A stretch of DNA of 21,067 nucleotides from a virus, in IMG/VR virus record IMGVR_UViG_3300025282_004410, positions 1 to 21,067 of that record; one strand, written 5' to 3'. Below are positions 3-20,583 of this stretch, piece after piece (position 1 is the stretch's first letter; every line of letters starts with the position of its first letter). Both the position numbers and the translations under genes were made by a program. The notes below the pieces were generated by a model that was not told the origin of the DNA, did not search any database, and saw nothing but the letters and a program-made list of their open reading frames with translations.

Positions 3-110
3 CTTATTCCTTTCCTCCTGAAGATCGGTGACATGGCCGTGAAGGTCACAAGATCTAAAAAGGATGATAAGGCATGGGCAAAGGTTAAAAAGGTCTTAGA
101 AGGGCTTTAA
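3..110 (+). CDS. C-terminal end of an unknown small phage protein (5'-partial)
   Basis: An open frame enters from the left edge and ends at TAA 108-110, leaving 35 residues. The visible part begins with a short hydrophobic stretch (LIPFLLKIGDM) and then becomes strongly basic and charged (VKVTRSKKDDKAWAKVKKVL). The last A of its stop is the first base of the next start (TAATG), so the two genes are translationally coupled and it belongs to the same operon. No domain can be named from so short a piece. A small membrane-associated or head-tail accessory protein would fit, but this is a guess. Support is the overlap, the compatible strand and codon use. Confidence 0.6.
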   Translation, partial: LIPFLLKIGDMAVKVTRSKKDDKAWAKVKKVLEGL

Positions 111-2626: not shown

Positions 2627-3159
2627 TGGGTCTTAGTCAAAGAGAAAGGGCATTAGGGCATCAGAAAGGTGGATTAGTTACTTTAGATGTTGGTACTCCA
2701 GGTGCAAGAGAAGGGTCAGATGGCGATATGACATTAAGAAAAGTAGCTAAAGGACTAGTATTATATATTAAAAAAGATAATAAATGGTATGATGTAAATA
2801 ATCTAAATATAGGCATAGATTCATCTATAATAACTATAAAGTCAACTAGTGCAACTCCAGTGAATAATATAAATGTAGCAGGTATTAATACAATTTTTGT
2901 AGATACTGATGACTATGATTATGTTATAGGTGGATTTTCTGGCGGTATAAGAGGGCAGAAATTATATATTACAAAAATTCATGTTGACAATGCTTTAACT
3001 TTAGAGCATTTTGAACCAAGTAATAGTCAGGTAATACTTATACCTGATGTAGCTGATTTAACTTTTGAAGCTACAGATTATGGTGGGGCTACACTTATAT
3101 GCGATGGCAGCAGGTGGTATTGTGCTGGAATAGCGCATCAATATAGTAATGATACATAG
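2626..3159 (+). CDS. Fiber-like / receptor-interaction virion protein
   Basis: 177 residues. Residues 23-57 (GTPGAREGSDGDMTLR through KWYDV) match the short N-terminal repeat seen in many phage fiber and appendage proteins, where a 'GTP..EG..GDM..R....G..L..K..G.WY.V' unit precedes a beta-rich stalk. The centre (about 89-115) and the end (about 153-168, GGATLICDGSRWYCAG) follow the pattern of fiber C-termini ending in a 'tLi.dG..WY..G' strand. It starts at ATG 2626, sharing one base with the previous stop (TAATG), with an AGGAG-type site about 10 nt upstream. I infer a small trimeric tail appendage attached to the preceding nozzle protein. It has no enzymatic motif. A head-decoration role is the main alternative. 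Confidence 0.62.
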   Translation: MGLSQRERALGHQKGGLVTLDVGTPGAREGSDGDMTLRKVAKGLVLYIKKDNKWYDVNNLNIGIDSSIITIKSTSATPVNNINVAGINTIFVDTDDYDYVIGGFSGGIRGQKLYITKIHVDNALTLEHFEPSNSQVILIPDVADLTFEATDYGGATLICDGSRWYCAGIAHQYSNDT

Positions 3160-3168
3160 GGGATAATT

Positions 3169-4734
3169 ATGGCAAGAGGGCGATATAAATTAAAAAGAGA
3201 TCTTGCGGCAGAGCAGGGACAGATACAGAGTGCTGCTAAAAAGCGCGGTCTATGGGGCAGTATAGGAGGTACACTACTTGGCGGTCTTGCTATTGCAGTA
3301 ACTGGAGGCGCTGCAAGTCCAGTTGTAGCTGGCCTTATGGCTGGTGGAGGTAAGTATATTGGAGGGCATTTAGGGAATCTGCTTGCTGGCAAGACTAAAG
3401 GAGGCAGACTCAAGGGAGGAAAGTTCTTCCAAGGAGAAAGAGAGGCTCTTGCAAGCCAGATTAAAGAGAATATAGGTGCTCAAGCTGCTAAAGCTGGTCT
3501 TACAGCTGGCATGGCGAAGCTACCTGGTGCTGCTTTGAAGTTTGGTAAGGAGGGCTTTTCAGCAACAGTTCAAAAGGCAAGTGGGCAGGTGGGTAAAGCA
3601 GAGGAAGCTGCATCTCTATATGCTCCAGGAGAAGGTGGTCTTGGTAAGCTTTTAGATTTCAGAGGTAGCTTTGTAGGTAAGGGATTAGGAAAGATGCAAG
3701 CTGCAAGAGCTACTAGAGAGACTGCAGATGCTGCTAGAGAATGGGAGGCTATTCAGGGAGGGATGGCACCTACATATGGTGGTTTTGATATTGATAAAGT
3801 GCTGCAACAAGGTAAGGCACAGCGAGTTAAAGATGCTGTAGAGATGGAAAGATCTGTTTCGGCATTTGATAGAACGCTTGCAGCGCCAAGGTCAACTGCA
3901 GCACATCATTTGCAAAATATAAAGAAAGTAGATCCATCTAAGCTTGCAGGGGCTTCTGAAGCTCAGGCAAAAGCTATATCGGAAGGTTTAGTACCTCCTG
4001 AGTATGGTCTTCCCAAGGGAGTAACTTGGGGAGAGACTGCTATTGATCCAGGTAGAAGTGATCTGTCGTATGCAATACCAGGCCAAAAAGGGGGCTTACC
4101 AGGACATCAGGGTGCGCTATCACAATATCCTCACTATGCTGGAGATGTCCCTGATTTAATGGATATGTATGAAGATGAGTTAAGTTTAGCCCGAGTAGAA
4201 CGTATGGAGGCAGCTAAAAGTGCAGACCCCATACGTGGCATGCAACGGCTTAAAGGAGTAGAAGAACAAGATTATCTAATGGATATAGAAAGAGCAGATA
4301 TGCCTACAGAGGCTATTCCAACAGATATGCCATTAGGTAAGGGATTGAATCCAATTGAAAGAAAGTATTATGATAGAGTCAATCAAATGGAAGGTGGAGG
4401 ATATAGTACAAGTGTAAGGGGAGGATTGCCAGAAGAATATGGGCGTGGATATATTTCAAGAGAAACAGGAGATATAGTAAGACCTCCTGCCAGCCCTAAT
4501 GTTCCTTTGCAAGACTATCCTATGGAGGGTTTAGAAGATTTTAATTTACCTACTACAATGAATGAGGTATCTGTAAGTGGGCAAGGTGGGCCAGGGTTCT
4601 CTGAATTTGATGAAGCATCCTGGAAAGAAGGACGTAAGACATTGAGCAATATTGATTTTGGACTGGCAGATGAACAAATACCGTGGCAGAAAAGATTTTT
4701 TCCTAAAAAGCGAGGGTTTGAATCTAGATGGTAA
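3169..4734 (+). CDS. Probable internal virion / ejection protein with Gly-zipper membrane segment
   Basis: 521 residues. A short basic N-terminus is followed at about residues 28-73 by a long Gly/Ala-rich hydrophobic stretch (GLWGSIGGTLLGGLAIAVTG and onward) with small-residue spacing typical of membrane-inserting glycine zippers. The remainder is hydrophilic, Gly/Pro/Glu-rich and low in predicted globular structure, ending in a basic tail (KKRGFESRW). Such proteins are typical of the internal core or ejectosome of short-tailed phages (functional analogues of T7 gp14 or P22 gp7/16/20), which leave the virion and form a channel in the host envelope. A GGGG-containing site lies in the 9-nt gap before ATG 3169. 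No homologue is recognised by name; the role is inferred from the segment and from its neighbours. Confidence 0.6.
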   Translation: MARGRYKLKRDLAAEQGQIQSAAKKRGLWGSIGGTLLGGLAIAVTGGAASPVVAGLMAGGGKYIGGHLGNLLAGKTKGGRLKGGKFFQGEREALASQIKENIGAQAAKAGLTAGMAKLPGAALKFGKEGFSATVQKASGQVGKAEEAASLYAPGEGGLGKLLDFRGSFVGKGLGKMQAARATRETADAAREWEAIQGGMAPTYGGFDIDKVLQQGKAQRVKDAVEMERSVSAFDRTLAAPRSTAAHHLQNIKKVDPSKLAGASEAQAKAISEGLVPPEYGLPKGVTWGETAIDPGRSDLSYAIPGQKGGLPGHQGALSQYPHYAGDVPDLMDMYEDELSLARVERMEAAKSADPIRGMQRLKGVEEQDYLMDIERADMPTEAIPTDMPLGKGLNPIERKYYDRVNQMEGGGYSTSVRGGLPEEYGRGYISRETGDIVRPPASPNVPLQDYPMEGLEDFNLPTTMNEVSVSGQGGPGFSEFDEASWKEGRKTLSNIDFGLADEQIPWQKRFFPKKRGFESRW

Positions 4735-4738
4735 CATT

Positions 4739-4755
4739 AAGGAGATTATAATATG
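4739..4755 (+). promoter_or_regulatory. Strong Shine-Dalgarno, copy 1 of a duplicated initiation signal
   Basis: AAGGAG at 4739-4744 sits 8 nt before ATG 4753. The surrounding string (TTAAGGAGAT, T/A-rich spacer, TAATATGGCA) is nearly identical to the one in front of the gene at 5842. Both intergenic gaps also begin with CATTAA right after the stop codon. This fixes both starts and suggests the two genes are expressed at similar high levels. Confidence 0.75.
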
Positions 4756-5811
4756 GCATACGATAAATTAGCACAAAAAGGTAGATATGGTGATACAGAG
4801 ATACGTAATGTTGCAGGTAGAAAGTCTCATGTAAATAGAAAAGAATCTAATCTTATAGATTTATATGGTATGCTAGGTGAACGCTTAGTTCGAGATGCAG
4901 GGGCGGGTACTATAAATCCAAAGACTGGACTTCCTGAGTATCATGGAAGTAAAAGAAATTATTTCAAGCCTCCAGTTGGACATCCTGGGCATCATACTCA
5001 AGCAGAAATTAATGAAGAACGTCGAAAGAAAGCGGAGAGAAGAGCTTATGCAGATGCTCCAGATGAATTTGATAAGGATGCTTATGCAACAGCACTTGAG
5101 GAAGGTGAAGGAGAGCAATATTTATTAGACATTGGAATCCCTCAAAATAAGATAGAATATTTTGAAGCTAATGTAGATGTAAAGGGTGAACTAGATCTAG
5201 CACAGGAAGCAAAGACTCTTTCAGGAGAAGCCGCTACTCTTACGGAAGCAGGAGCTACTCTTGCAGAGGGTCAAGCTGAGGCACAATATGGAACTGAAGG
5301 AGAAGCGTATACAGGTGCTCAGGCAGCCTTTGATATAGGTAGTAAGGGTCTGGCGGAAGGAAGGCGTGGTGCTGCGGCTCGATATGGATTAGGAATGGAA
5401 CAGGCTGGGCTCCAAGCAGGAAGATCTTTATCTAGTGTTTATGCTCAGACATCTGCGCAACAGGAGAAAGCAGGATTTGGGCCTGGAGGAGCAGTAGCAG
5501 CTGCTGGTAAACGTGCACAGAAAGGCGTCTTTCAGGATTATACAACACAGCAGAAACAATTGGCAGAAGCTCAGACTTCAGCTATGACTGGGTTTGATAT
5601 TCAGGCAGAGGGATTAGCAGAGTCTCTAAGATCTTCAAAGGCAAGTGCTGATATTTCTTATACTGGTGCTATGGGGCAAGCTGATTTAACAAGACAAGGT
5701 GCTGGTTTGGATAGAGACCAAGCAGACCTCACTTATAAACAGAAGAAGTTTAGTGTAGGGCAACGAGCAGCAGATGAATGGTGGGAAACCTATGAAGCCA
5801 CGAATGTATAG
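4753..5811 (+). CDS. Probable internal virion protein, Ala/Gly/Gln-rich helical
   Basis: 352 residues. The N-terminal third is charged and includes KPPVGHPGHHTQAEINEERR. From about residue 145 to 320 the composition becomes Ala/Gly/Gln/Glu-rich and helical with weak internal repetition (AAxL, GLAE, QAxL, short units of around 7-14 residues), as in elongated core or ejection proteins. At about 241-257 the pattern GFGPGGAVAAAGKRAQK resembles the 'GF..GGs...a....q.' turn frequent in T7 gp14-like internal virion proteins. No catalytic motif or clear membrane helix is visible. The start is set by a perfect AAGGAG 8 nt upstream. Its place between two other probable ejection genes supports a virion-core role. 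The name is by context and composition rather than by a recognised family. Confidence 0.6.
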   Translation: MAYDKLAQKGRYGDTEIRNVAGRKSHVNRKESNLIDLYGMLGERLVRDAGAGTINPKTGLPEYHGSKRNYFKPPVGHPGHHTQAEINEERRKKAERRAYADAPDEFDKDAYATALEEGEGEQYLLDIGIPQNKIEYFEANVDVKGELDLAQEAKTLSGEAATLTEAGATLAEGQAEAQYGTEGEAYTGAQAAFDIGSKGLAEGRRGAAARYGLGMEQAGLQAGRSLSSVYAQTSAQQEKAGFGPGGAVAAAGKRAQKGVFQDYTTQQKQLAEAQTSAMTGFDIQAEGLAESLRSSKASADISYTGAMGQADLTRQGAGLDRDQADLTYKQKKFSVGQRAADEWWETYEATNV

Positions 5812-5828
5812 CATTAATCAAAGTACTT

Positions 5829-5844
5829 AAGGAGATGTAATATG
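5829..5844 (+). promoter_or_regulatory. Strong Shine-Dalgarno, copy 2 of the duplicated initiation signal
   Basis: AAGGAG at 5829-5834 lies 7 nt before ATG 5842. Together with flanking TTAAGGAGAT and TAATATGGCA it repeats the signal in front of 4753, within a 30-nt gap that also starts with CATTAA. Confidence 0.75.
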
Positions 5845-7695
5845 GCAACTTTTCAAACGCCAAGAATAGTAGTAGAACAAAGTCCATGGCAGACTTTCTT
5901 TGAGGAACTGCCAGGTATGTTTGCTACATATCAGAAGACTAAACTGCATGCAGAAGAGGCTGAAAGAGCTAGGCAATTTGCAAGAGATAGTCAGTATATT
6001 AAGCATGAGATGGATAAAGACCTTATGTACGAAAAGGCAATTATAGGATTACAGGAAATAGCTATAAACAAAGGTGTTACCATAGATATAGATCTAGGTA
6101 AGAATGAAGTTAGCTCTCCTGCTACCCATACTCGTGGTGGTGACAAAATGAATAAGATTGTACAGGAGAATATGATACAAGCTCCTGTCCATAATGCTGA
6201 ATATAGACGTTCAATTGCCTTAGATAATTTAAATTTAATCACCCAGGGTCAAAATGATGCTTTAATCTTAGATATAAATTATGATGGTAAAATTGATACA
6301 GCAGAAATAGGTACTTTTCAAAACAGTCCTGAAGGGCAACAACTTCTTAAGTCACTTGATCTTACTGAATTTCCTGAGCCTTATTTAAGAGGGGCAAGGG
6401 CATATTTAGAGCAACCAAAGGTTAAGCAGAGTAGGAAAGCCTTATTTGATCTTACTAATATGCTAGGAGCGCATGTTAAAGATACTGATCCTGATGCTCC
6501 AGGACTTCAATTTGATCCTTCAGATCCAAGGGCAATTGAGATAGAAAATACATTAAATGCGATTCAATTACAACAAATTCCTGCAGCTACCGCAGCACTT
6601 CAAAAGGTTGTTGGAGCTGAAGATCCTTATGCAAGGCAGAAATATACTCCTCTTGAGCAAACTCTACTTGAAAAAGAAGGAATGATAGTAGGAGAGGACC
6701 CTCGCATGGGAGCTATAGTTAAGCGCTCTAGGGAAGATATAATGGCTTCAGAAGAATTTCTTAATTTAACAAAGCAGAGGCAGGCAGCGCTTGATTCACT
6801 TAGTACTATACAGGATATTGACCCTAGGGGGCCAGATTATGTGCCTACAGGTCCAGAAGATGTCTCTCCCGAGCAGTTAGAGCAAGCAGATATAGTAGGC
6901 CAAACCGAAGAACAACTAGAGGCTATGTTAGCTGATACTGATGTCAGTAGGCAAGAAGCAGCTGAAACTATTATTAGACAAAAGAACATAGCTCAGACCC
7001 GTAAAGATGCCAAAGATGACCTTAAGCTAATGGATGCTGGGGAAGAAAGGGAACAAGAGAACTTTGATGCAGCACAAGACCAGCGATACAGAGGTCTTCG
7101 CTCCTTTTATGAATCTGGTCCTCTATATGCAAGAAAGACAACTAGTGGTAAATTTCCAGAGAATACTCCTAAATGGGTGAAAAAGATCTATAATGAAAGC
7201 AAGGTTCTTTATTCGTTACTTTCTGGTAAAACATTTCCTGGGGTAGGAGGAAAGCATGAAAGTGACGATGCAATGAAGATTATGCAACAAGATATACAAA
7301 AGTATATAACAGAAATTATGACTAAAAGTGGCTATGATCCACATGCAGATCTTGAGAGGGTTTATAATGCAGGAGAGACTGTGGATCTGAAAGCTAGAAA
7401 TGTTTTAAAATCTCCTAAATTCCAACAAGCTGTAGATCCTAGAGGTGATGGTACTTATGATACAAAAAAGGCTGCGATAAACTTGGATAAACTGTTTAAT
7501 TTGCATGGAAAATCTCAGTTAAGATGGGTACCTGGAATTGACCCTGATAAGCGTACAATGGCGCAAGGAGAGGCAATAGCACATCTGTATAATGTATGGT
7601 TTGGCCTTGAGCAAGAACTGATTAGAAGAAAAGGTTATTCTCTTGAAAGGCAGGATAAGCAGAGAGATTACGAGAAAGTAATCCAAGGATTATAA
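5842..7695 (+). CDS. Probable virion core / ejection protein with an EF-hand-like loop
   Basis: 617 residues, mostly charged and helical, with no signal peptide and no convincing membrane helix. The N-terminus (about 15-60) looks like an amphipathic helical region. Residues 144-155 read DINYDGKIDTAE, an exact fit to the calcium-binding EF-hand/dockerin loop (D1, N3, D5, G6, I8, E12). The C-terminal half (about 380-610) is Lys/Glu/Asp-rich. The stop TAA is immediately followed by the ATG of the giant RNA polymerase-helicase gene with no spacer, and that gene's ribosome site (AAGGA) lies inside this one, so the two are translationally coupled. I infer a partner of the giant protein in the capsid or in the injected complex. 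It has no recognised family name. Confidence 0.6.
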   Translation: MATFQTPRIVVEQSPWQTFFEELPGMFATYQKTKLHAEEAERARQFARDSQYIKHEMDKDLMYEKAIIGLQEIAINKGVTIDIDLGKNEVSSPATHTRGGDKMNKIVQENMIQAPVHNAEYRRSIALDNLNLITQGQNDALILDINYDGKIDTAEIGTFQNSPEGQQLLKSLDLTEFPEPYLRGARAYLEQPKVKQSRKALFDLTNMLGAHVKDTDPDAPGLQFDPSDPRAIEIENTLNAIQLQQIPAATAALQKVVGAEDPYARQKYTPLEQTLLEKEGMIVGEDPRMGAIVKRSREDIMASEEFLNLTKQRQAALDSLSTIQDIDPRGPDYVPTGPEDVSPEQLEQADIVGQTEEQLEAMLADTDVSRQEAAETIIRQKNIAQTRKDAKDDLKLMDAGEEREQENFDAAQDQRYRGLRSFYESGPLYARKTTSGKFPENTPKWVKKIYNESKVLYSLLSGKTFPGVGGKHESDDAMKIMQQDIQKYITEIMTKSGYDPHADLERVYNAGETVDLKARNVLKSPKFQQAVDPRGDGTYDTKKAAINLDKLFNLHGKSQLRWVPGIDPDKRTMAQGEAIAHLYNVWFGLEQELIRRKGYSLERQDKQRDYEKVIQGL

Positions 7696-10600
7696 ATGAC
7701 CTACCAAGAATTAGCTGCCTACCTTAGGTCAGAGTATTCCCCTACCTATGGGGGTGAAGAATGGCGTGACGATATACTTCTTGTAGAAGATTACATGACA
7801 GTTCGTCCTGACGCCATGGACTGGGATGTAGACATTTCCAATTTTAATGAACTTCAAGGGCTTACTGAAGAAGGAGCCCCTCTCCCTGTTGCAGGTTATG
7901 GAAAGCAATTAAAATTTGGTTTTACTAATATAGGCCTTCTTTTACCTCAGATGGTGCAAGCTGAGCAGGCAGAAGAATTGATGAAGGGTGTTGAGGGTGA
8001 GACTACTACTGCTGAAGATATTGGTGTCCTTCCAGGCGTACTTTCTCCTTGGGAGGCAGCTCCCGAAGACAGAGAAGAGAGTTGGGGTGAGTGGTATATG
8101 CGTTCTATGGCTAACCTTGCAGGTGCTGCCAGGGGCGCTTTAGGTGCTCCAATAGATAAAGTAATGGCTATGAGAAGGCTTATGCTCCAACAGACTGGTA
8201 GAATAAGCCCTGAGATAGCTGAAGGAGCGCTTAGAGGCGCAGAAGACTATAGAAGATGGAAAAACGAATGGACGAATGAATGGATAGATTCTGATCCAGA
8301 GCTACAAGGGCTCTTATTGTGGAATAAAGAGCATCCTGTTGGCTTTAAAGAACTTATTGAGGGCAATGCTGGTGATGTTGTTATGAGGGGTTTGATTCAA
8401 GCTGCCCCTTCTCTTGGTGCTTTTATGGCAGCAAACTATATTGCTGGTCCACAGGCAGCTATGGGTGTTGCTTTTGCTCTTGGTAAGGCTGCGTCATATG
8501 ATGAAACAATGTCAGCATTGGTTGATGAGATGGGCATTCCGCCAGAAGAAGCAATAGGATATGCCAATGATATGAGTACTATAGTTGGTGCAGGTGAAAT
8601 GATACTGGAATCTATTGGAGGCTTTGGAATATCCAAGGCATTAGGCAGGGATAAGGTAGCAAAAAAACTATATGACACTGCAGGTAGGAGATGGTTAATT
8701 AATAAGATAGCTAATCCTGCTATTAGGAAAAAACTACAAAGTGAAACTGCCTACACTTTGGTAGATGTTATGAAGAGTGGTGGTAAAGAATATTTAACTG
8801 AAGCCTTCCAAGAGATGAATTCATTCCTGGGAGTTGAAGCTGCCAAACAAGGCTATGGAGATGGTGCTCCTGAAAATGCCTTAGCTGATATTACTAAGCA
8901 GTATGGTGATTTCTTATCCAGTCGCGCAAGACAAAAAGAAGTATGGAAAGAAGCTGAGGCTGGGACAGCAGGATTTGTTGGATTTATTGCTGGTGTTAGT
9001 GTATCTGCTACAGGCTTAGGCCCTTCAGCCTGGGATGATTATCAATACTGGAAACAGCAGAAAGCAAAAAGAGCAAGAGAGGACTTCTTTAAACCTGTAC
9101 GTGAAGCTGAAGAGAAAAGAAGATTTGACGAAGAAGTTGAAGAGGCAGAGTTTGAAGATGCTGGCGTTCCAATACCAATAGAGAAACAATTAGGTCCTGG
9201 TCGGAGGCATATAGATTTTATTGAAGATGATGCTTTAATGCTTAATCTTATTACTGGTGGGCTAGAGTCTATCCCTGAGGATCAAAAGGAAAGAGCAATA
9301 TATCTACGTAAGGTCTACGGCCTATCTAATAACAGAAAAGCATTAGAGAAGATTAATGATATACTTAACAGGAGAGCTGATGTAGTAGAGAAGGCTGGTT
9401 TAACTCCTGCAGGAATCAAAGAAGGTATCATTGCACAATTCCCCTCAGATAATAAAGATCTTAACAAGATAATCAGTTCAGTAAATGAACGGGTAGATAA
9501 GTATGAAGCAGGAGAGATTACACCTACTGGAGAAGAAGTCTCTAAGCCAAAGGAAGGCTTACCTCTTGATGTTTTAGATCGACTAGAAGGAGTAGATGTT
9601 CCCGAAGGGCCTCCAGATGTAACAGATGTAGTCTCAGACCTTTTTGAACAGCGTGATATTGAACCCTATGTTGAGGAAGAAGTAACTGACCCAGATCAGA
9701 TTATATCCCCCGAAGAGGATGTTGTCATTGATGTTGCTGAACCAACTGGGTTTGAAGAGCCAAGTGAGGAAGTTTTAAAATTTGCTGCAGAAGGAGAAGA
9801 GTATAGGGGAGATAATATAGTTCAAACGCCTACCATACCAGCAGATGAACAGCTTACTCCAGCTAAACCTATAGTAGAAGTACCTGAAACTGGAGAGATT
9901 ACTGTTTATAGGGATGAGAAGAAATCTACTATTAAAATAGAGAAAGTCACTAATGATGTTGCTGCAGCTATTCAGAAAGATGAATCAGTTAAGGAAGTAG
10001 ATGCTCTTATCGTTGAGGGAGATCAAGCTGGACTTATAAGACAGATGCAACAAATGAATGTTCCTGGTGCAGATAAAATACCATTAACTAAGGATGGCAA
10101 GGTAGATTATACTGAAGCTGACCCATTTATTCAGGAATTCTTTAAGGATGACTTTAAATATATTCGATATAATAACAAACAGCTTGAGCAAAAGGGTGTA
10201 GAGTTCCATGACCTTGAGACTGGAGAGCATGTTACTACTAGTCCTATACTGGCAAAGATTTATGCTGGTCAGCGTAAAGCAAGGGATCTAAAGAAGAAAG
10301 TTCCAGTTGAAGAAAAACCTGCAGATATAGCTCCATTTATTTTTAAAGATAATATTATTAAGGGTGATGAGATTCTTGGATACGATCCTGAGGTAGGAAG
10401 GTTTATCAAGGGTGACGAGGTGCGTTCTAAGGAAGATTATCTTGCAGAACAAGAGCCAGCTGAAGCTGCTTCTTATGACAAAGAAGGGGAAGAAGCTATT
10501 GTAGGGCATACAGTCTTTGCTGATAATGCAATAAAATATGATAATTTGGTTAAAGTTAGATATGAGCCTAAGAATGATAGATTATGGATTAGAACTCTAG

Positions 10601-13600
10601 ATGGTGCAGGACGGAATATTGCAGGATATACTGAGATTCAAAGGCTTGCTGATCCAATGCGTAGGTTTGAATCTAAGGATGACTTAAAAGCAGAGATATT
10701 TAATCGTTATTATGAGGTTGTAGAAAAATTGTTAAACTCTGGCTACATAACCACAGAAACTAAGCTGAATTTAAGTGGGTTAAAATTAAAGAAGGATATT
10801 AATAAGGTTAGCGATTTAATACCTGAAAAAGCTCCAGCAGTAAGGCCTGTCGATCCTAGCGATATAGATGAGGGCATTGAGGTCACAGGTATTGATCTTA
10901 GTAAGTTCCAGAAGAAAGATAAGAAAAAAGAAGAGGCATTTTTAGAAGAGACATCTGCCCCTGAGGAATCCCAGATAGTGAATGTTCCCAGGCCTAATCT
11001 AACTATTTTAAGTGCAAGGACAGAGCAGCTACAGTATACGGGTGACCAAACAAAGAGCCTTACATATGTATCTTCTATTACAACTCAGGCTATAGAGGTC
11101 GGGAGAGAACGTGGGAGGCTTGGAATTATTTCTGGATATGCTGGTACTGGCAAGACTACAATTATAGAAAATATTGCAAAGGATATTAAGAAAACTTCTG
11201 GTAAAAATGTCTTCATTACTGCTCCTACTAATAAGGCAGTCTTAAGGCTTCGTGAGGTAGTTGACCCAAATGATGAAGGATTTGCTACTTTCGCTACTGT
11301 ACATAGTGCAATATATGGTGAGCCAGATGAAATTACTGGAAAATTTACACCCAAAACAACAATAACAGGAAATGATGTTGTAATTATTGATGAAGCGTCT
11401 ATGATACCAAGTGGTATGTGGGAAGATTTGGAGCAGTATGTAGTCAATAGAGGTGCAGACCTTATCCTTCTTGGTGATGGTTTTCAACTACCTCCTGTGC
11501 TTTCAAAAGGAGAGAATGACCCTCAGCTTCTTACCCGTGCAGGTGTTGAAATGAAAGAGGTTAGGCGACAAGAATTAGAGAGTAATATTTTATCTTATGC
11601 TACATTTTTAAGAAAGGTTGGGCTAGGAGAAGTTCCTGCACTCGACCCAACAACCATCGTAATACCTGATGGTTCGGAAGGCGATGTTAGAGTTAGCCAT
11701 GACTCTATTAATATGTTTTTGAGTTCGCTTAGAGAGAATCCAAATCAAGATATTATATATATTACTGCAACTAATAAGTGGAGAGAGCGAGTTAATGATA
11801 AAGCCAGGGTTGCAATTTATGGAGGAAAAGCAGGCAAAGAACCTTTACTCCCTAACGAAAAAGTTATATTTATTGCCAATGGTAGGCACTCTAAGAATGG
11901 AGAAGTTGCAATTATTGCTACCAATGAAGGGCTACGTAAAATTGATTTTATAGCTTTCAACCCCAAGACAAGGGAAGATGAAGAAATAAGAGGTTATGTA
12001 TTTGAATCAAAGGATGTAGGGGGAAGAACACTTTTAGTTCCTAAGTGGGAAAACCCTAACCTATACCATCAGCAGGTAAAAAAAGCTCCTAGTGATTTAA
12101 TGGAAACTACTAAAAAAGGTAAACGAATACTAGCTAGAGATGTAAATGTAGCTACTTATGGTTACGCTATCACTGCACATAAGTCACAAGGTAGCCAATG
12201 GGATACAGTATATGTGGATCAGAATTTTGTTTTTGGTGATAATCCTAATAGATGGTTATATACTGCCGCAACAAGAGCGCAAAAGAATTTAGTTATTCAA
12301 CAGGATGGAGACAAACAGAACTTGTCCTGGAATGGTATACATTCTATATCTAAAGGACCACAACCTAAGCGTCCACCAGGCTTTCCTCAAGATGGAGAGA
12401 TAGATGAGCGCTTACAAACTATTGCATTAGGTGATAAGATAGAGGATAACTATGAAGCTTTCTTGGCTATTGAAAGTAGGCTTCGTAGGCACCATCCTTA
12501 TGTTAATGTGCAGAAGCTAAACCAAGTGTTTACTCAGCATGGAGAAGAGGTTGCTGGTAAGGCTATAGGTACAGGTATCCAGATTAGCATGACTCAGGGC
12601 AACATTGGAATTATGGCTCATGAGTATGCAGAAGTATATGTAGACCTCCTGGAGGGTGACAAATTTGTAAATGATGCATTAAATCGTCTCAAACAGAAAG
12701 ACAGGAAGCAGGCAAAGCATCTACTTGCTAGCCATATTGATCAGTATTATACTGGTAAAATGAAAGACAAAGGACTCCTGTCTCGCATGAAATTATTCCT
12801 TAAAAGATTTCTTACAACGCTCAAATCGCTCTTTAGGACGCTTGAAGACCAAGAGCTGTATGATTTGATAGCTAACAAGTTTTTCGCGGGTGTGGGGGCC
12901 AGGAGGGCCCAGAAACGGGCAACTGCTGAAGAAGCAGGTCCCAAAGAAGAGGCTTTACAGCCTTTAAATACTAAATTAGGGGAATCCAGGCTTGCAATGT
13001 TCTTTGATGAGATGTGGTTTAGGGTTAAAGCTGCTGGAAAAATGGAAGCAAGGACAGTTGAGTTCAAGTCTGTGCTGCCTGATATCAGGGAGTTTATTCA
13101 GACTGTTCAGGGATCTATACCACAGGTATATCAAAATGCACTTAAACTCTGGGCTCAGGATAGATTCCCAAGAGAAGGTAAGGCATACTATGAACATACT
13201 CGCAGGTCTAACTATCATTATACTCCTGGTGTGGATGAGATAGCCTTCTTAGACTATGGATACATCCAGAGGATGATAGAGGATGATCAGTTCGCAGATA
13301 TTAATGAAGGCATGGGTAAAGTTAATATGGGAGAGCTTGATATTGATCTCTCAGGAGCTGATGTAAAGCTTGAAAGTGTAGTGCTAAGGGATCTTGGGGT
13401 AACGCTTACAACCAAAGAGAATAATGCATTATTTCATAAGACAAGAGATGCAGAAAGTTTTACTGAGTTTTTAGGGTACTTTAAAAATAATATTAAACCT
13501 ATTTTGAGAGGAGGTGATCACACACAACTCTTACGATACTATCTTGCAAGGAGATCTACTGTTGCAGTTAACAGAGAGGACAGAGCTGGTAACGAACGTG

Positions 13601-16600
13601 ACAATTTGGTGATTGATCTCAACAAGAAGAATCCATCAGTACAATATGCAGGGCCATTGGATATTGCTAGAAGGGATAAAAAGAATAAGAAATGGGACAA
13701 GATTAATCTCTTAGAGCATATTACAGGGCAGAGGCTGATATGGGCTACTGGAAATAATACCTTTAAGCAGTCCAATGGTGTCTGGGATGAGACATATGGC
13801 TTCTTAACTGCTGAGGATCTAGTAATGCTTGAACCTTCATTTAATAAGCTTAAGATAGTTCCAGTATTTACGAGGGGAGAGAAGGCTAACTTAGGTTTTG
13901 TAGAATGGAATAAAGATCATGAGGTAAAGGCTGCAAATGCAAGAAAGTATTGGCAAAAACAATTTGGAGAAGGAAAGATTACTGAGAAGCAGATGCTTAA
14001 TTTCCTGGGAGCTAATAGAGATCCTGCTGACATCACTTATGAGTTCCTTGCGGGAGAGATAGCTCGCTTTGAAGCGTATGAAAATATGTTCCCAGGGCTC
14101 TTAAAGACAGGTGATGGAGCTAAGATGCTTAAGCGTGCCAAGATCCCTACTGTGGGAGTCTCTATATCAGATGAGATACCTGACCAATCATTAGAGATAT
14201 TTGATCCAACCAATGTTTCATTTGTCTCCTCCAATGGACATGTACAGCCAGCTATGGTGCAGATACCAGGACATGAAGGACTGAGGTACATCTTTGATGG
14301 AGGTACTCCTACTAGTCATGATGCATTCAATGATTTTAGGGTGTTTATGGGACTGCAGCAAGGAGCAAAGCACTTCAAGACAGTTGTATATAATAATGAT
14401 GCTACTGACTTGATAGCAATGAAGCATCAGCATTTTGAAATGGAATCTGGGCTAGAAGCATGGGAGAATCATGGTAAGCCTAATGCAAAACTATTATGGA
14501 AGGTGGATGAGAATAGGAATATAATTAATGCTGAAGGTGAACAGATAAGCTTTATGAATACTGGAGATGAGTCCAAGATAGCATCATCTAATAAGATGAC
14601 CATTCCTGGGAATGCAATTGGATCAGTTAAGTATGGCAATACACATACTACTGGGAAGCATCCATTACAAGTATATAATTATAGAAGGGAAGATGCTGTA
14701 AAAGAAGCATTCAAAAAGCACTATCTACCACAGATTGATTCACGTATTAAAAATGAGATATCTGGTATTTTGTTTGGAAGTAAGGACAAGACTAATTGGG
14801 AGCATGTACTTGAGCTAGTAGAGAAACTGGATGGGTCCTATCCTGACTTTGCAACCCATAGTCTTACTGAGAAAGCCAGCCTTGAAGCAGATACGCATGC
14901 AGATATGACTACCATACTTAAGATCTTAGTTCAAAGCAAGATTATAGGGCCTGCTGTGCAGCTTGACAAAGTGAAGGGTAGTATCTTAGAGTTTAGACCC
15001 AGTCTTGATGGTACTGTGCAAGAAGGACAAATGAGTGTACCATATAAAAATGTGAAGAATACTATTATTAAGGATTATACTACTGCTACAGGAGATAAGA
15101 AGGCTGAGATTGCAGATGTTAATGAATGGCTTAGCAATAATGAGAACCATATGTATAGTTATAGATCTCCTATACCATACGGAGGTGGTGCTCATATGAT
15201 GCGGGTTATATCTGTACATAATGATAATGATATTGTTCAGTTGCATCCTAATGATCTTTTTGGTAGATATGAAGGTGATAATGATGGTGATACTTTACAC
15301 ATAGAGCAAGTGCCAAAGGATATTGTAGGCACTTATCTTAATGTACAGGAAGACCTGACTACTATTGATATGAATAAGTATGCAAAGAAAGAGCTTGTAG
15401 ATATATCAGATAGGGGTGCATTATATGATCTCATTGGTGAAATGACCTTTGGAGGCAGGGCTACAGGAGAGATTGCTAATATACAAAATGTATATGGACA
15501 GCTTCAGGATACTTTTTATAAAGCATTGCTAGATGGTGAAACAATAGTTCTTCGTGGCCCTAAAGAATCTTCTAGCTTTGAGGGATTTGAGAAAGAAAAT
15601 ATGGAGACTGCTCTTAGATATTATCTACAGGCTGCGCTTGACAATGCTGAGTTTTTGATCCTGAAAAAGATGGATTATAATCGTCCTAAGTTGATGAAAG
15701 GATTGTTTAAAAAGAGCACAGGAGAAGAGATAACTGACGAGCAGTACGAAGCATTAAAGCCTCTTTTAAATGAGATGCTTGAAGCTCCAAGGCTTAGAAA
15801 TGGTCGAGATAAAGAAGGTCCTTATACTATGGAAAAAACAATGCGTAAGAGTGCATTTATACATGCATTTTCTCATGCAAGAACAGAATATTTTATGCAA
15901 CTATATGAAGAAGCTGTGGAAGATAGTAGAAATAGAGGTACTGGCGAAATAGAAGGTATAGCTAAGTTTGAAGGGATATACTTCTTTGAAGGGCAGACTG
16001 TTGTTGAGGAGATAGCTAGTAGGCCTTTCGTAGTGTACAATCAGATGAAGAAAGAGAACCCTGAATACTTTCAACATATAAAAGAGAATACTTTCATAGA
16101 GAAGACATACAATAGGCATTCTGCATTGCATCAAGCAACAATGAATGTACTAATAAAAGCTAAGCCATTACAGGATGTATTTTTTAAGGAGGCAGAGGAA
16201 GCTGGTCTTAATATTAAAGAAGAGCTAAGGAAAGGAAAAGAGTATGAGGAAGCAATGGGGAATGCATACTTTGGTACCGAAACTACACAGGGCTTGATAG
16301 GTAAGTTAAAAACATTAGGTCCCCAGGTATGGGATAAAAGTGAAGAAGGTATTAGATTTACTGAAGACTGGGTAGATCAGTTTAATGCATTATCTAACAT
16401 TGCTAAGATAGAAGCTACCTTTAGATTCCTTGAACGTCATGCTGTTGCTTCAAAGTTACCTCCGTATGGGGATAAGTCAAAAGTTATGGGACTTTTGCAT
16501 GCAGGTATAATGAAAAACTATAATAAAATCTATAATAAATATGAATTAATACCACAGCTAGATGTAACTTATGGTAAAGAAGGTAAAGTTAAAATACAAA

Positions 16601-16704
16601 AATATCCTGGTGAATTAGCTAAAGCTTATGATGAGAGGGCTTCCGCTAAGCACAGAAGTAAGTTTAAGGGAATATTTAACTTCAGGAAGAAAAATTGTCC
16701 ATAA
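7696..16704 (+). CDS. Giant virion protein: SF1B helicase fused to a two-barrel-type RNA polymerase
   Basis: 3002 residues. Regions in order: N-terminal part with hydrophobic stretches at about 229-262 and 423-441; acidic linker about 630-740; SF1B (RecD2/Dda-type) helicase about 1100-1560 with Q-motif Q1118, Walker A GYAGTGKTT (1147-1155), motif Ia APTNKA (1176-1181), motif II DEAS (1232-1235), motif III GDGFQLPP (1260-1267), R1290/R1291, motif V TAHKSQG (1493-1499), motif VI AATR (1524-1527); degenerate zincin-like segment HEYAE (1642-1646); RNA polymerase-like region about 2190-2700. The last has R2490-S-P2492, L2516-H-P and D2528-N-D2530-G-D2532, in the order and near the spacing of beta-prime NRAPTLH, LHP and NADFDGD. 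Candidate beta-like barrel lysines are K2228 and K2243. It ends with tandem TAA TAA. Start: ATG abuts the previous stop, AAGGA 7 nt upstream. By analogy with N4 gp50 and crAss-like virion polymerases it is probably packaged, injected and used for early transcription. Helicase assignment is very firm; polymerase assignment is strong by motif but untested. Confidence 0.8.
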   Translation: MTYQELAAYLRSEYSPTYGGEEWRDDILLVEDYMTVRPDAMDWDVDISNFNELQGLTEEGAPLPVAGYGKQLKFGFTNIGLLLPQMVQAEQAEELMKGVEGETTTAEDIGVLPGVLSPWEAAPEDREESWGEWYMRSMANLAGAARGALGAPIDKVMAMRRLMLQQTGRISPEIAEGALRGAEDYRRWKNEWTNEWIDSDPELQGLLLWNKEHPVGFKELIEGNAGDVVMRGLIQAAPSLGAFMAANYIAGPQAAMGVAFALGKAASYDETMSALVDEMGIPPEEAIGYANDMSTIVGAGEMILESIGGFGISKALGRDKVAKKLYDTAGRRWLINKIANPAIRKKLQSETAYTLVDVMKSGGKEYLTEAFQEMNSFLGVEAAKQGYGDGAPENALADITKQYGDFLSSRARQKEVWKEAEAGTAGFVGFIAGVSVSATGLGPSAWDDYQYWKQQKAKRAREDFFKPVREAEEKRRFDEEVEEAEFEDAGVPIPIEKQLGPGRRHIDFIEDDALMLNLITGGLESIPEDQKERAIYLRKVYGLSNNRKALEKINDILNRRADVVEKAGLTPAGIKEGIIAQFPSDNKDLNKIISSVNERVDKYEAGEITPTGEEVSKPKEGLPLDVLDRLEGVDVPEGPPDVTDVVSDLFEQRDIEPYVEEEVTDPDQIISPEEDVVIDVAEPTGFEEPSEEVLKFAAEGEEYRGDNIVQTPTIPADEQLTPAKPIVEVPETGEITVYRDEKKSTIKIEKVTNDVAAAIQKDESVKEVDALIVEGDQAGLIRQMQQMNVPGADKIPLTKDGKVDYTEADPFIQEFFKDDFKYIRYNNKQLEQKGVEFHDLETGEHVTTSPILAKIYAGQRKARDLKKKVPVEEKPADIAPFIFKDNIIKGDEILGYDPEVGRFIKGDEVRSKEDYLAEQEPAEAASYDKEGEEAIVGHTVFADNAIKYDNLVKVRYEPKNDRLWIRTLDGAGRNIAGYTEIQRLADPMRRFESKDDLKAEIFNRYYEVVEKLLNSGYITTETKLNLSGLKLKKDINKVSDLIPEKAPAVRPVDPSDIDEGIEVTGIDLSKFQKKDKKKEEAFLEETSAPEESQIVNVPRPNLTILSARTEQLQYTGDQTKSLTYVSSITTQAIEVGRERGRLGIISGYAGTGKTTIIENIAKDIKKTSGKNVFITAPTNKAVLRLREVVDPNDEGFATFATVHSAIYGEPDEITGKFTPKTTITGNDVVIIDEASMIPSGMWEDLEQYVVNRGADLILLGDGFQLPPVLSKGENDPQLLTRAGVEMKEVRRQELESNILSYATFLRKVGLGEVPALDPTTIVIPDGSEGDVRVSHDSINMFLSSLRENPNQDIIYITATNKWRERVNDKARVAIYGGKAGKEPLLPNEKVIFIANGRHSKNGEVAIIATNEGLRKIDFIAFNPKTREDEEIRGYVFESKDVGGRTLLVPKWENPNLYHQQVKKAPSDLMETTKKGKRILARDVNVATYGYAITAHKSQGSQWDTVYVDQNFVFGDNPNRWLYTAATRAQKNLVIQQDGDKQNLSWNGIHSISKGPQPKRPPGFPQDGEIDERLQTIALGDKIEDNYEAFLAIESRLRRHHPYVNVQKLNQVFTQHGEEVAGKAIGTGIQISMTQGNIGIMAHEYAEVYVDLLEGDKFVNDALNRLKQKDRKQAKHLLASHIDQYYTGKMKDKGLLSRMKLFLKRFLTTLKSLFRTLEDQELYDLIANKFFAGVGARRAQKRATAEEAGPKEEALQPLNTKLGESRLAMFFDEMWFRVKAAGKMEARTVEFKSVLPDIREFIQTVQGSIPQVYQNALKLWAQDRFPREGKAYYEHTRRSNYHYTPGVDEIAFLDYGYIQRMIEDDQFADINEGMGKVNMGELDIDLSGADVKLESVVLRDLGVTLTTKENNALFHKTRDAESFTEFLGYFKNNIKPILRGGDHTQLLRYYLARRSTVAVNREDRAGNERDNLVIDLNKKNPSVQYAGPLDIARRDKKNKKWDKINLLEHITGQRLIWATGNNTFKQSNGVWDETYGFLTAEDLVMLEPSFNKLKIVPVFTRGEKANLGFVEWNKDHEVKAANARKYWQKQFGEGKITEKQMLNFLGANRDPADITYEFLAGEIARFEAYENMFPGLLKTGDGAKMLKRAKIPTVGVSISDEIPDQSLEIFDPTNVSFVSSNGHVQPAMVQIPGHEGLRYIFDGGTPTSHDAFNDFRVFMGLQQGAKHFKTVVYNNDATDLIAMKHQHFEMESGLEAWENHGKPNAKLLWKVDENRNIINAEGEQISFMNTGDESKIASSNKMTIPGNAIGSVKYGNTHTTGKHPLQVYNYRREDAVKEAFKKHYLPQIDSRIKNEISGILFGSKDKTNWEHVLELVEKLDGSYPDFATHSLTEKASLEADTHADMTTILKILVQSKIIGPAVQLDKVKGSILEFRPSLDGTVQEGQMSVPYKNVKNTIIKDYTTATGDKKAEIADVNEWLSNNENHMYSYRSPIPYGGGAHMMRVISVHNDNDIVQLHPNDLFGRYEGDNDGDTLHIEQVPKDIVGTYLNVQEDLTTIDMNKYAKKELVDISDRGALYDLIGEMTFGGRATGEIANIQNVYGQLQDTFYKALLDGETIVLRGPKESSSFEGFEKENMETALRYYLQAALDNAEFLILKKMDYNRPKLMKGLFKKSTGEEITDEQYEALKPLLNEMLEAPRLRNGRDKEGPYTMEKTMRKSAFIHAFSHARTEYFMQLYEEAVEDSRNRGTGEIEGIAKFEGIYFFEGQTVVEEIASRPFVVYNQMKKENPEYFQHIKENTFIEKTYNRHSALHQATMNVLIKAKPLQDVFFKEAEEAGLNIKEELRKGKEYEEAMGNAYFGTETTQGLIGKLKTLGPQVWDKSEEGIRFTEDWVDQFNALSNIAKIEATFRFLERHAVASKLPPYGDKSKVMGLLHAGIMKNYNKIYNKYELIPQLDVTYGKEGKVKIQKYPGELAKAYDERASAKHRSKFKGIFNFRKKNCP

Positions 16705-16815: not shown

Positions 16816-19800
16816 ATGAGCCAATGCGATAGAACCGAAGAGGCAATGAATGAGGTACTGGAGTCTATAGATTCCAACCAACGGTCCATAGATAAGCGTA
16901 TGGACGAAAATATATCTCCTAGCAGTCCAGATACCAAAAAAAGACGTAGTGCTTGGAAGAAATTCAGAGATAGACTTAATAATGAAGAATATGGTACTAA
17001 TCCTAGTGAAAAACTTTTAAATAAGAAGTTTTTAGAGCTATATAAGGGCAAAAATGGAGAACAGGCACTACTTGCTGGCAAAATAGAAGAATTACTGGCA
17101 CAGAGCGATATAAGGTCTTTTGTATTTCTTGATTTCCTTAAAAAAGACATGTTAGCCCATGATGTATGGGAAATGATTACAATTGACTCTAAAGGACGTC
17201 CTGTATTGGAATCTCTTCCCTGGAAATATTTAAATAGCTTATATCATAGGATGTGGAACTTTGGGCAGGAAACTGATTGGGATTCGCAAAGAATGAGACG
17301 AGTCAATATTTCTTTTGGAAGGCCTTTTAATCTTAAATGGAAGGATTCCTCTGGTGGGTATGCTATCATGGAGAATGCTGTTGCTCAATATGCAGGCAAT
17401 ATACATAGAAATACTAATCAGTTCTTGAACTCTAATGGTCAAAGATTTACTAAAAATGGTGATCCTTATGGAATGAATGATGTCTATCAGTGGGCAGGGG
17501 AGATAGCTGAGCTTCTTGATGAAGGTATTAGGCAGGGAGAAGTAGATAAAAAGGGTAGCTTGGGCAATGTGCAGTCGCATTTTGTTAAGTTTATGACCAT
17601 GTATCTTAATGGGTGGATATCTCTAGATCATACTACTGGTGAATTTTCAATTGCTACTAGGTACCGCTCTCTTGGTGATACTTTTAAGCGAGCAGTAACC
17701 TATAAAGGACAGCTTGGGCAAATTGTCAACCAATCAGAGGGAAGATTATTTGATCTTAAGCTGGAAAGTGGAGCATTGTTTAAAAATGTTAATGAACAAG
17801 ACTTCAGTTACAGGGGTGGTAAGGATTATGTATTTGGGTGGACGGATTTAATTACCCTTGAAAGTTATAATGAAGCTAAGCATGGTGAGGCATTTTTCGA
17901 GAAGAAAGAATTTAATATGCCATTACCTGTTAAAGATTTTCTTGAGGACCATATTGATATGACTCCTGCAATGACTAAAAGAATGAATGAACTGTTTGTT
18001 ATGGTTAAAGGTTCTTATAATGAGCAAGGGAAACCTTCTTTTCGTGGTATCCACCAAGAAGTATATACTTGGTTCAATGGACTAAGGGATGAGAATGGCA
18101 ATTTTGTCCAAAAGAATGGTAGAGAAGTTTATGTTGGAGTTATGGAGGAATCTAAAAGAAAAATTAATGATGCTGTGCTTAAATGGTTTGTTGATGAAAA
18201 TGGTAAACCATATGATAAAAGGCTTGTTGAGCAGGGTTTACGTGCATTATGGGATGAAAATTATGTTCGAGGACCAGATGTCCCTGATCATCTTATGGAG
18301 ATAGTAGATGAACTTAGTATTTTTACTGAATTTGTTTTATTTCAAAGTTTATTTTGGGATACGCAGCAAATGCAACATAAAGATTCATTTCCTATACAGT
18401 ACCACTTAAAAAAGCTCCCTTTCCAATTTGATAAGCTGGAAAATAGACTAAAACAGGAATTAGATAGAGTTCAAAGAGAAAAATCTAAAGCTGATGTAAA
18501 TAAAAGAAGTTTTGATCTCCCAATAGAGACAATTGAAGGTGCTTTAGAGCATGCAGCATGGGCTAAAGGCAGGTTTAATATGCTGGATGAAGATACAATA
18601 ACTGATACTAAGATTGTCGGCAGAAAAGACTCTGTGCATGCAAAGCATATCACTAATGCTTTTGATCCTATGGAAATGCGTACAGATAGAGATCTTTATG
18701 GAGCTGGATATTTAACAAATCTGGCTAAAACTGTTGAAAGAAATAATTTAATTGCTGCCCTTATGGATTCAATGCGTATAGTAAAAACAGGTAAGTTTGT
18801 TAATCCAGAAGCAGTAGAACAAGCTATTATGTCTCTTTATCATGGTACTATTGGGCATCCTGAAACAAGGGGAATGGTTGCAGGTATTGATTTTTCTCCA
18901 AATGCAATATCACAACAACTTGAGAAATTAAATATAAATATTCCTAGTTCTGTAATAGAAACAAATTTTAAGACATTAAACAGATATTTTACTTTTATAT
19001 TGCTTAATAAGTTTGGTACAGCAGCAGGCAATTCATCCCAAGCTGTTGAAAAAGGTATGATATTTGGTTTTCAGTTATTAACAGAAATGCAAGATTACTA
19101 TGAGAGATATAAAAATGATCCTGGATTACAAGCATTATTACAAAAAGCTGATGTAGCAGCATTTACTGATTATTTTAGTAAAAACATGGTTGGCGAAATG
19201 CGTGCCCTTGAGGAGTCAAGGATACAAGTAGTTCCTGCACTTGCCGCTATGATAAAGTATAAGAAAGATGTTGAAGCTGGCAAGAATGAAGACGCTGCAT
19301 TTAAGATAATGAAAAGAGAAGTTGCTTTATTTATGAGGACTGAAATAGCTAAAGGCGACGTTCCTACCCTAGTAGAGCTTACCCAGCGTAAGAAAGCAAT
19401 GAATAGGAATACTAGGCTAGAACGTGTAAATAAGATGGCTAACTGGGCTATTACACAGGAATATGACCCAGCCCCTCCAATGCCAGGAAGTAGATTTGTT
19501 AAGTTAAAAGCAAAATTTGGTCAAGCATTAAGATATATATCTCAACATAAGCGAGATATGGCTGGGCTCCCTACAATGGCAATTACTGAAGCAGCTACAA
19601 GATCTCTCAGCTGGATCATAGGAGCCGAACTACATAGGCGAATGGTGAGATATGAAGTTCCTTTGCATAAACTTGAACCTGAGATTGATTTTTTACAGAA
19701 AGAACTTATTAAAAATAAAGCTTTAGACTCTAAGGGCAGAAAAGCTATTAAAGAAAAGCTAAAAATGCTAAGAAAGCAACGTTCAGAATTTCTTTTAGTA

Positions 19801-20583
19801 GGCAAATGGGCAACCAGAGCTTTAGATTTTGACCTTGAGAAAGCTTTATATCCAGAATCAGGAAGAGTATCAAGCAGTAAATTCTTTGGTTTATTTGGTG
19901 ATTTTGGTAAACAAAGGATGGAAGAGGAAGGCGAAAAGGCAAAAAATGCTTATAGAGCCAATATACCTATTGGAGAAGATCCAAGCAAATGGAATGTTTA
20001 TGCATTTTTTAAAACAATGGGAGACTTAGGTAAAGGATTATTGCCTGAATACATATGGAAAGCAATACATGGAGGTAAATATGTTCCTAAGCATGTAAGA
20101 CAGACTACAGATAAGGCATCTGCCACACTACAAAGATTGGGTAATATATGGGCTTTTACTGTGGCATATGATTTAATGGTGGGGTTTGGCATTGGAAGAT
20201 TTTTCCTTGGAGGGGTAACACGTAAAGTTTTGCAGAAATTAGACAGATCCCATCAGCTTGGTAAGGCAAATTCTAACATAGCAAGTTTATTAATATCTTT
20301 ACCAGTCTTGCTTGCAATTAGCCAATGGGGAGATGATGATGATGAAGTGGATAAAAATGAATTATGGGATTTTTTACTTTTTTCAGTGCCTATGGTTGGA
20401 GTAGGAGGAGCTATAGCTGCAAATGCTATAATGTGGCTTTGGGGTACAGTAGGTGGCAATCTACAAGAAGCTTGGGATGATTATGGTAAAAAGGTTGTTA
20501 GGACAATGTCTCCATCACAAGTATTTCCTATCATTGAAGAGACTGCAGAACCTGTAATTGAATATATAGAAGAAGAATTCTAA
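16816..20583 (+). CDS. Large probable ejection protein with C-terminal membrane segments
   Basis: 1255 residues. The N-terminus is charged (about 1-100). The middle is globular-looking and aromatic-rich with no catalytic motif I recognise. A segment about 712-750 (including NRYFTFILLNKFGTAAGN) recalls the conserved 'N..T...N' stretch found toward the end of very large phage virion polyproteins. Near the C-terminus lie hydrophobic segments at about 1109-1135, 1153-1169 and 1185-1210. An acidic run DDDDE (1173-1177) sits between the last two, and the protein ends in an acidic tail (EYIEEEF). This pattern suggests insertion in the host membrane after ejection. Start ATG 16816 has GGAG 8 nt upstream and is the first ATG after the in-frame stop at 16789. 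As the next gene after the giant polymerase it is the likely channel partner, or the separated C-terminal part of a once longer polyprotein. Confidence 0.65.
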   Translation: MSQCDRTEEAMNEVLESIDSNQRSIDKRMDENISPSSPDTKKRRSAWKKFRDRLNNEEYGTNPSEKLLNKKFLELYKGKNGEQALLAGKIEELLAQSDIRSFVFLDFLKKDMLAHDVWEMITIDSKGRPVLESLPWKYLNSLYHRMWNFGQETDWDSQRMRRVNISFGRPFNLKWKDSSGGYAIMENAVAQYAGNIHRNTNQFLNSNGQRFTKNGDPYGMNDVYQWAGEIAELLDEGIRQGEVDKKGSLGNVQSHFVKFMTMYLNGWISLDHTTGEFSIATRYRSLGDTFKRAVTYKGQLGQIVNQSEGRLFDLKLESGALFKNVNEQDFSYRGGKDYVFGWTDLITLESYNEAKHGEAFFEKKEFNMPLPVKDFLEDHIDMTPAMTKRMNELFVMVKGSYNEQGKPSFRGIHQEVYTWFNGLRDENGNFVQKNGREVYVGVMEESKRKINDAVLKWFVDENGKPYDKRLVEQGLRALWDENYVRGPDVPDHLMEIVDELSIFTEFVLFQSLFWDTQQMQHKDSFPIQYHLKKLPFQFDKLENRLKQELDRVQREKSKADVNKRSFDLPIETIEGALEHAAWAKGRFNMLDEDTITDTKIVGRKDSVHAKHITNAFDPMEMRTDRDLYGAGYLTNLAKTVERNNLIAALMDSMRIVKTGKFVNPEAVEQAIMSLYHGTIGHPETRGMVAGIDFSPNAISQQLEKLNINIPSSVIETNFKTLNRYFTFILLNKFGTAAGNSSQAVEKGMIFGFQLLTEMQDYYERYKNDPGLQALLQKADVAAFTDYFSKNMVGEMRALEESRIQVVPALAAMIKYKKDVEAGKNEDAAFKIMKREVALFMRTEIAKGDVPTLVELTQRKKAMNRNTRLERVNKMANWAITQEYDPAPPMPGSRFVKLKAKFGQALRYISQHKRDMAGLPTMAITEAATRSLSWIIGAELHRRMVRYEVPLHKLEPEIDFLQKELIKNKALDSKGRKAIKEKLKMLRKQRSEFLLVGKWATRALDFDLEKALYPESGRVSSSKFFGLFGDFGKQRMEEEGEKAKNAYRANIPIGEDPSKWNVYAFFKTMGDLGKGLLPEYIWKAIHGGKYVPKHVRQTTDKASATLQRLGNIWAFTVAYDLMVGFGIGRFFLGGVTRKVLQKLDRSHQLGKANSNIASLLISLPVLLAISQWGDDDDEVDKNELWDFLLFSVPMVGVGGAIAANAIMWLWGTVGGNLQEAWDDYGKKVVRTMSPSQVFPIIEETAEPVIEYIEEEF

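Follow-up and report, generated by a model that had tools for sequence, protein, structure and literature searches.

A phage giant protein that joins a Dda-like helicase to a predicted two-barrel RNA polymerase

The window analysed here is the whole of IMG/VR record IMGVR_UViG_3300025282_004410, a stretch of 21,067 bases that is probably a fragment of a larger genome and within which no early genes are found. Its central feature is the gene for a giant protein, which lies among the following neighbours.

110..2626, + strand: probable tail protein of 838 amino acids, in the structural operon
3169..4734, + strand: protein of 521 amino acids with a hydrophobic N-terminal stretch, a candidate ejection or pore protein
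4753..5811, + strand: protein of 352 amino acids, assigned by gene context to an ejection-like module
5842..7695, + strand: protein of 617 amino acids, encoded directly 5′ of the giant gene
7696..16704, + strand: giant protein of 3,002 amino acids, intact, with an ATG start and no internal stops
16816..20583, + strand: partner protein of 1,255 amino acids with C-terminal hydrophobic helices, encoded directly 3′ of the giant gene

The 838-residue protein matches no family in Pfam or PHROGs, but its homologues occupy the equivalent place upstream of the giant gene in the related contigs G001, G004 and G005, and it is the position and composition of the 521-residue protein that suggest an ejection or pore function. 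In relatives, the giant gene stands at the end of a structural operon, downstream of genes for the major capsid protein (MCP), portal and tail. In one of these, contig G003, the structural genes encode an SU10-type MCP (2.2e-18), a P22-type portal (3.4e-47) and a large terminase (TerL) that is distantly N4-like. A partner gene for roughly 1,100–1,300 amino acids adjoins the giant gene on its 3′ side in the members checked. Because the giant gene closes the structural operon and is followed by this conserved partner, its product most probably belongs to the ejection module of a podovirus; we call it virion-type, and presume it to be packaged, from gene position. Contigs G003, G005, G002 and G004 are podovirus-like, encode DnaB-type replication proteins on the other strand and have no close match among the phage records searched.

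The giant protein is laid out as an N-terminal region, a linker, an SF1B helicase, a zincin-like domain and a two-barrel RNA polymerase (RNAP). An earlier note made from the sequence had described the helicase and polymerase motifs in one reading frame; the frame is intact and every motif that it named is where it had been placed, although that note had overlooked both the conserved partner gene downstream and the zincin-like domain that separates the two enzymes. The domains and motifs are as follows.

11038..12309, + strand: Dda/RecD2-like SF1B helicase, residues ~1115–1538 (Pfam, PHROG, Foldseek)
11134..11160, + strand: helicase motif I (Walker A), GYAGTGKTT, residues 1147–1155, invariant in all six fused helicases
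11383..11400, + strand: helicase motif II, IIDEAS, residues 1230–1235, with DE-S conserved in the six
11473..11496, + strand: helicase motif III, GDGFQLPP, residues 1260–1267, with GDGFQL invariant in the six
12172..12204, + strand: helicase motif V, TAHKSQGSQWD, residues 1493–1503
12265..12282, + strand: helicase motif VI, AATRAQ, residues 1524–1529
12388..12900, + strand: zincin-like domain, residues ~1565–1735 (boundaries approximate), 92% identical to the near-copy L003
12619..12633, + strand: HEYAE, at the place of HExxH in most relatives
13555..16701, + strand: predicted single-chain two-barrel RNAP, residues ~1954–3002 (AF2 model, Foldseek, 17-member family)
14263..14655, + strand: putative first barrel (DPBB-B, beta-like), residues ~2190–2320, with conserved K2228 and K2243
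15148..15330, + strand: catalytic barrel (DPBB-A, beta-prime-like), residues ~2485–2545, with R-S-P...LHP...DNDGD
15277..15291, + strand: metal-binding DNDGD, residues 2528–2532, its three Asp invariant in 17 members
15451..15513, + strand: candidate bridge helix, residues ~2586–2606, following the catalytic barrel (helix 687–707 of the AF2 model)

A complete SF1B helicase of the Dda/RecD2 group occupies residues ~1115–1538, as the earlier note had read from the motifs, and here motifs, family profiles, PDB sequence and fold all agree. The segment matches Pfam AAA_30 (3.7e-22) and UvrD_C_2 (1.1e-13), the PHROG profile of Dda-like helicases (phrog_325, residues 1135–1538, 2.4e-63) and, in a sequence search of the PDB, Dda-like and RecD2 chains. 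An AF2 model of residues 1090–1899 has a pLDDT of 58 overall, being good across the helicase core and of low confidence outside it, and its helicase is closest by Foldseek to DSH9 (1e-17), T4 Dda (3upu, 7.6e-17) and RecD2 (5e-16). Helicase activity is predicted, with translocation on DNA expected to run 5′–3′.

The domain that follows is classed only as zincin-like, because HEYAE replaces the HExxH motif that most other family members keep. In both the window and L003 (HEFAE) the third zincin ligand is Glu, so that neither carries the canonical HExxH; compared with most relatives, a metal ligand has been lost or altered.

The polymerase part matches nothing significantly in Pfam, PHROGs or the PDB by sequence, and a five-member profile likewise retrieves nothing significant from the PDB. 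We nonetheless regard the series YRSP (residue 2489), LHP (2516) and DNDGD (2528) as real, because its degenerate DNA pattern LHP-x8-GDxDGD has a single occurrence in the window and none in 100 shuffles, retrieved true relatives from the viral collection and covers residues that are invariant among them. The alignment of 17 relatives has 28 invariant columns, including D2528, D2530, D2532, R2490, P2492 and K2228, and K2243 is nearly invariant (at least 90% of rows); the two lysines, placed in the other barrel, may serve in catalysis by analogy with known two-barrel RNAPs.

An AF2 model of residues 1900–3002, built on the 17 relatives, reaches a pLDDT of 83.2 and a pTM of 0.80. Foldseek ranks the virion RNAP of crAss-like phage phi14:2 first in the PDB (6vr4, 9.4e-10), followed by QDE-1, RDR2 and then the RNAPs of P23-45 and P74-26 (gp64 among the matches), and all 18 matches at E ≤ 1e-3 are single-chain two-barrel RNAPs. 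TM-scores are moderate (0.2–0.5) and rmsd values large, which we attribute to differing domain arrangements. Judged by these matches, residues ~1954–3002 appear to carry both barrels in one chain. The earlier note had proposed a two-barrel RNAP, rather than one of the T7/N4 type, in the helicase chain; the model agrees with that proposal, and no non-polymerase fold is among the matches. The position and role of the first barrel are predicted by analogy with other two-barrel RNAPs, and the bridge helix is a candidate assignment from the model. No sigma-like melting device is recognised in the RNAP chain.

A search with a five-member alignment reached 20 loci, or about 20 relatives, in IMG/VR. 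Full-length cases are giants of 1,545–3,749 amino acids with DxDGD, which is invariant in all 17 relatives taken into the alignment. Contig G004 encodes a short member (1,395 amino acids; L081, 1390–5574) that has the polymerase, lacks the N-terminal half of the giant protein and is preceded by an 852-residue gene. The order helicase, zincin-like domain, RNAP and partner of ~1,200 amino acids recurs at ~28% identity, and thus the same domain order, for which the earlier note had advised a search, does exist in other phages.

Other searches were narrower in their yield. Protein-based scans with the window alone returned only its two near-copies, the genome contig collection yielded no relative, and tblastn searches of INPHARED with the polymerase of the window or of L092 found no relative; with the full-length giants of the window and L098, the matches listed cover the helicase segment only. 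A scan for the GDNDGDT pattern gave other giant RNAP-like proteins and no new close kin. The giant phage reading frames in L026, L037 and L050 carry R-x-P...GDNDGDT and are likely further two-barrel RNAPs outside the family. A beta-prime-like frame with LHP...GGDFDGD (L011, 3390–4997) adjoins another large frame on a 36-kb contig, and this pair looks like a split RNAP of the jumbo-phage type, unrelated to the window family.

The fusion is not an assembly artefact, because its layout recurs in records at several distances: a second metagenome assembly (L083) holds an identical giant protein (100%, intact), that of L003 (contig G001) is ~80% identical, intact and laid out as in the window, and four more distant records also show the single-chain layout. 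A chimeric assembly was therefore ruled out by the same architecture in six records of varied divergence.

Only 6 of the 17 aligned members carry a fused helicase (the window, L003, L084, L085, L088 and L098), which lies N-terminal of the zincin domain throughout. The remaining 11 have none in the giant protein, and we saw no Dda-like helicase elsewhere on their 20–58-kb contigs, which may be fragments. As a general rule, then, the polymerase can do without the helicase. Upstream of its helicase, L085 (the giant protein of G003) has a match to phrog_9995 (6.8e-28) and a DprA-like domain (3.7e-17) in residues 717–979.

On the RNAP tree, presence and absence of the helicase need three changes; helicase trees unite the six fused helicases in a single clade (support 78/87 with one outgroup set and 99/97 with another). 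These trees are compatible with a single gain and later losses, and also with the transfer of one lineage of helicases. When the window is compared with L003, the regions of the zincin and the RNAP are 87–92% identical (RNAP 87%) with dS of about 0.5, whereas the helicase segment (window 11050–12375) is only 54% identical with dS of about 1.5, and linker residues 720–1040 are rewritten. From this difference, the helicase module seems to have been exchanged by recombination, independently of the RNAP. The dN/dS values of 0.25 for the helicase, 0.125 for the RNAP and 0.09 for the zincin region indicate that all three are under purifying selection.

Against viral structure models, Foldseek returned close matches to the polymerase (A0A516LSI3, TM 0.86; A0A516LUR1, TM 0.82) and also crAss-like proteins annotated as 'DNA helicase', including two from Suoliviridae.

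MT774375, 65825–80149 (L114): cr50_1 protein QOR58058.1, 4,774 amino acids, annotated 'DNA helicase'
MT774379, 16381–31221 (L116): cr118_1 protein QOR58373.1, 4,946 amino acids, annotated 'DNA helicase'

In the cr50_1 protein, HEAFH is at residue 1665 and GSDFDID near 3154, and residues 4248–4726 form a Dda-like helicase; cr118_1 has the same zincin, two-barrel RNAP and Dda-like helicase. Like the window protein, both thus join a zincin or zincin-like domain, a two-barrel RNAP and a Dda-like SF1 helicase in one chain, but the order is zincin, RNAP, helicase, with the helicase C-terminal, whereas in the window it is N-terminal of both other domains. The catalytic barrels are in register (R-S-P...DNDGD in the window, R-x-P...DFDID in the crAss RNAP), and no sequence similarity between the two RNAPs is detectable beyond this catalytic motif. 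The cr50_1 gene has tail genes on one side and, on the other, a 1,386-residue gene that resembles the 1,255-residue partner of the window in size and place, although no similarity between the partners was detected.

In a tree, the cr50_1 and cr118_1 helicases group with free crAss helicases, apart from the window clade, and a single clade for both sets, as one shared fusion would require, is rejected by the AU test (p-AU 3.9e-7). On this evidence, helicase and two-barrel RNAP have been fused at least twice, independently. As the window itself carries no TerL, portal or MCP, membership of Crassvirales was assessed with the genes of its relatives, whose TerL, portal and MCP have no phmmer match to those of cr50_1; we therefore do not place the family in that order.

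The interpretation offered in the earlier note therefore holds for the domain identities and for the occurrence of the domain order elsewhere, but not for the absence of a precedent: two deposited Crassvirales genomes pair the same enzymes in reversed order, and the IMG/VR relatives pair them too. Although the helicase–RNAP fusion is thus already present in deposited sequence, we found no description of it in the article texts consulted, most of which were searched by term.

We propose, with a probability of roughly 60%, that the giant protein is an early RNAP, that it forms part of a podovirus-like phage's ejection module and that it brings its own strand-opening motor into the cell. The chain would run from an N-terminal tethering region through the helicase and the zincin-like domain to the polymerase, and would be packaged and then ejected together with the partner gene product. 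Its helicase would engage the incoming phage DNA, separate the strands or clear the DNA, and hand single-stranded template over to the polymerase that shares its chain. Such a fusion could free early transcription from host melting factors and couple it to DNA entry. A more specific form, in which the helicase strips and opens the incoming duplex at the envelope and feeds it straight into the polymerase as a self-contained transcription-entry engine, evolved at least twice and with an exchangeable helicase module, is more tentative, at somewhat less than even odds.

The strongest argument for functional coupling is that the pairing of helicase and RNAP arose independently in two phage groups. 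The coupled model is also supported by the RNAP fold, because the catalytic residues are conserved and because the operon place of the giant gene matches that of the cr50_1 helicase–RNAP gene, and it accords with a helicase that is motif-intact in six members and constrained (dN/dS 0.25). On native N4 DNA, the virion RNAP (vRNAP) of phage N4 shows no activity, and the opening of its promoters depends on host gyrase and single-stranded DNA-binding protein (SSB) (PMC4496689); a fused helicase would be a natural supply of opened template. Against the model, the 11 of 17 relatives that do without a helicase are the strongest argument that it is not necessary, helicase segment and RNAP have evolved along separate courses, and proteolysis could part the two enzymes.

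Other readings assign the helicase a different task. A helicase kept at the envelope by the N-terminal region and the partner protein might instead translocate on the entering genome and pull it into the cell, with transcription as a parallel job of the chain. Its podovirus-type context and ejection-like neighbours with hydrophobic stretches would suit such a motor, and a second one is plausible given that N4 genome entry is driven by early-gene transcription (PMC4496689) and that the authors of the P23-45 study propose, in the article text, transcription during translocation through a tape-measure pore (PMC10770324). We consider this unlikely, however, as most relatives have no helicase yet must import DNA, and Dda-kind SF1B helicases move on single strands whereas the genome enters as duplex, on which no loading site is known. 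Slightly less probable still is that the giant protein carries several unrelated enzymes into the cell, where zincin-assisted cleavage separates them, the helicase then protecting DNA or countering defences, by clearing bound proteins or disturbing a RecBCD-like attack, rather than aiding transcription. The zincin-like domain does lie between the enzymes, metallopeptidases occur in other giant phage proteins (PMC5512222, article text), the helicase module was apparently exchanged independently of the RNAP, and L085 adds its DprA-like domain; set against this are the loss of the third histidine (HEYAE), the single open frame for RNAP and helicase, and the pairing of a Dda-like helicase with two-barrel RNAPs twice independently.

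A late operon is also expressed in the cell, and the protein might accordingly be a middle or late RNAP with a helicase, made after infection and only incidentally encoded beside structural genes. This we regard as very improbable, because the gene follows tail genes in the operon with a partner gene conserved across the family, and because it holds the same position in crAss-like phages, whose RNAP-associated proteins are virion components, as found by mass spectrometry for crAss001 according to the article text (PMC10172136).

The coupled early polymerase that we favour bears on the question of how injected phage RNAPs reach double-stranded promoters without sigma factors, for which N4 borrows gyrase and SSB. 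The recurrence of the fusion points to a repeated need of injected polymerases for a DNA-opening partner, and two independent fusions in opposite orders would represent a phage-encoded answer to DNA opening that is directly testable. In at least two deposited crAss-like genomes, a protein annotated 'DNA helicase' contains an RNA polymerase of the virion kind. For a group of polymerases that escapes sequence searches, there is now an aligned family together with a confident model.

Among known systems, phi14:2 gp66 (6VR4), a single-chain two-barrel RNAP, is the best PDB fold match of the window polymerase while being only 10% identical to it, and to our knowledge it has no fused helicase. QDE-1 and RDR2 likewise hold both barrels in one chain, but their biology, RNA silencing, differs; we know of no helicase in these chains. 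Closer in context is P23-45 gp96, described in the article text as a giant virion protein with a two-barrel RNAP, a metallopeptidase and membrane segments, whose RNAP part is present in the virion (PMC10770324). In contrast to the window protein, it is a tape measure protein with the RNAP at its N terminus, and its phage is long-tailed. The authors also mention that crAss-like and N4-related phages have vRNAPs fused to large uncharacterised proteins, and the word 'helicase' is absent from their text (PMC10770324). N4 gp50 is the giant, ejected early RNAP of a podovirus, and the distantly N4-like TerL of G003 recalls that phage, yet gp50 is a T7-type single-subunit enzyme; this type of virion RNAP, by which N4-like phages (Schitoviridae) are recognised, is not what the window encodes, its RNAP being two-barrel. 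T4 Dda and RecD2, finally, have helicase motifs, profile and fold in common with the window protein, but they are stand-alone proteins, whereas the window helicase is one domain of a virion-type giant.
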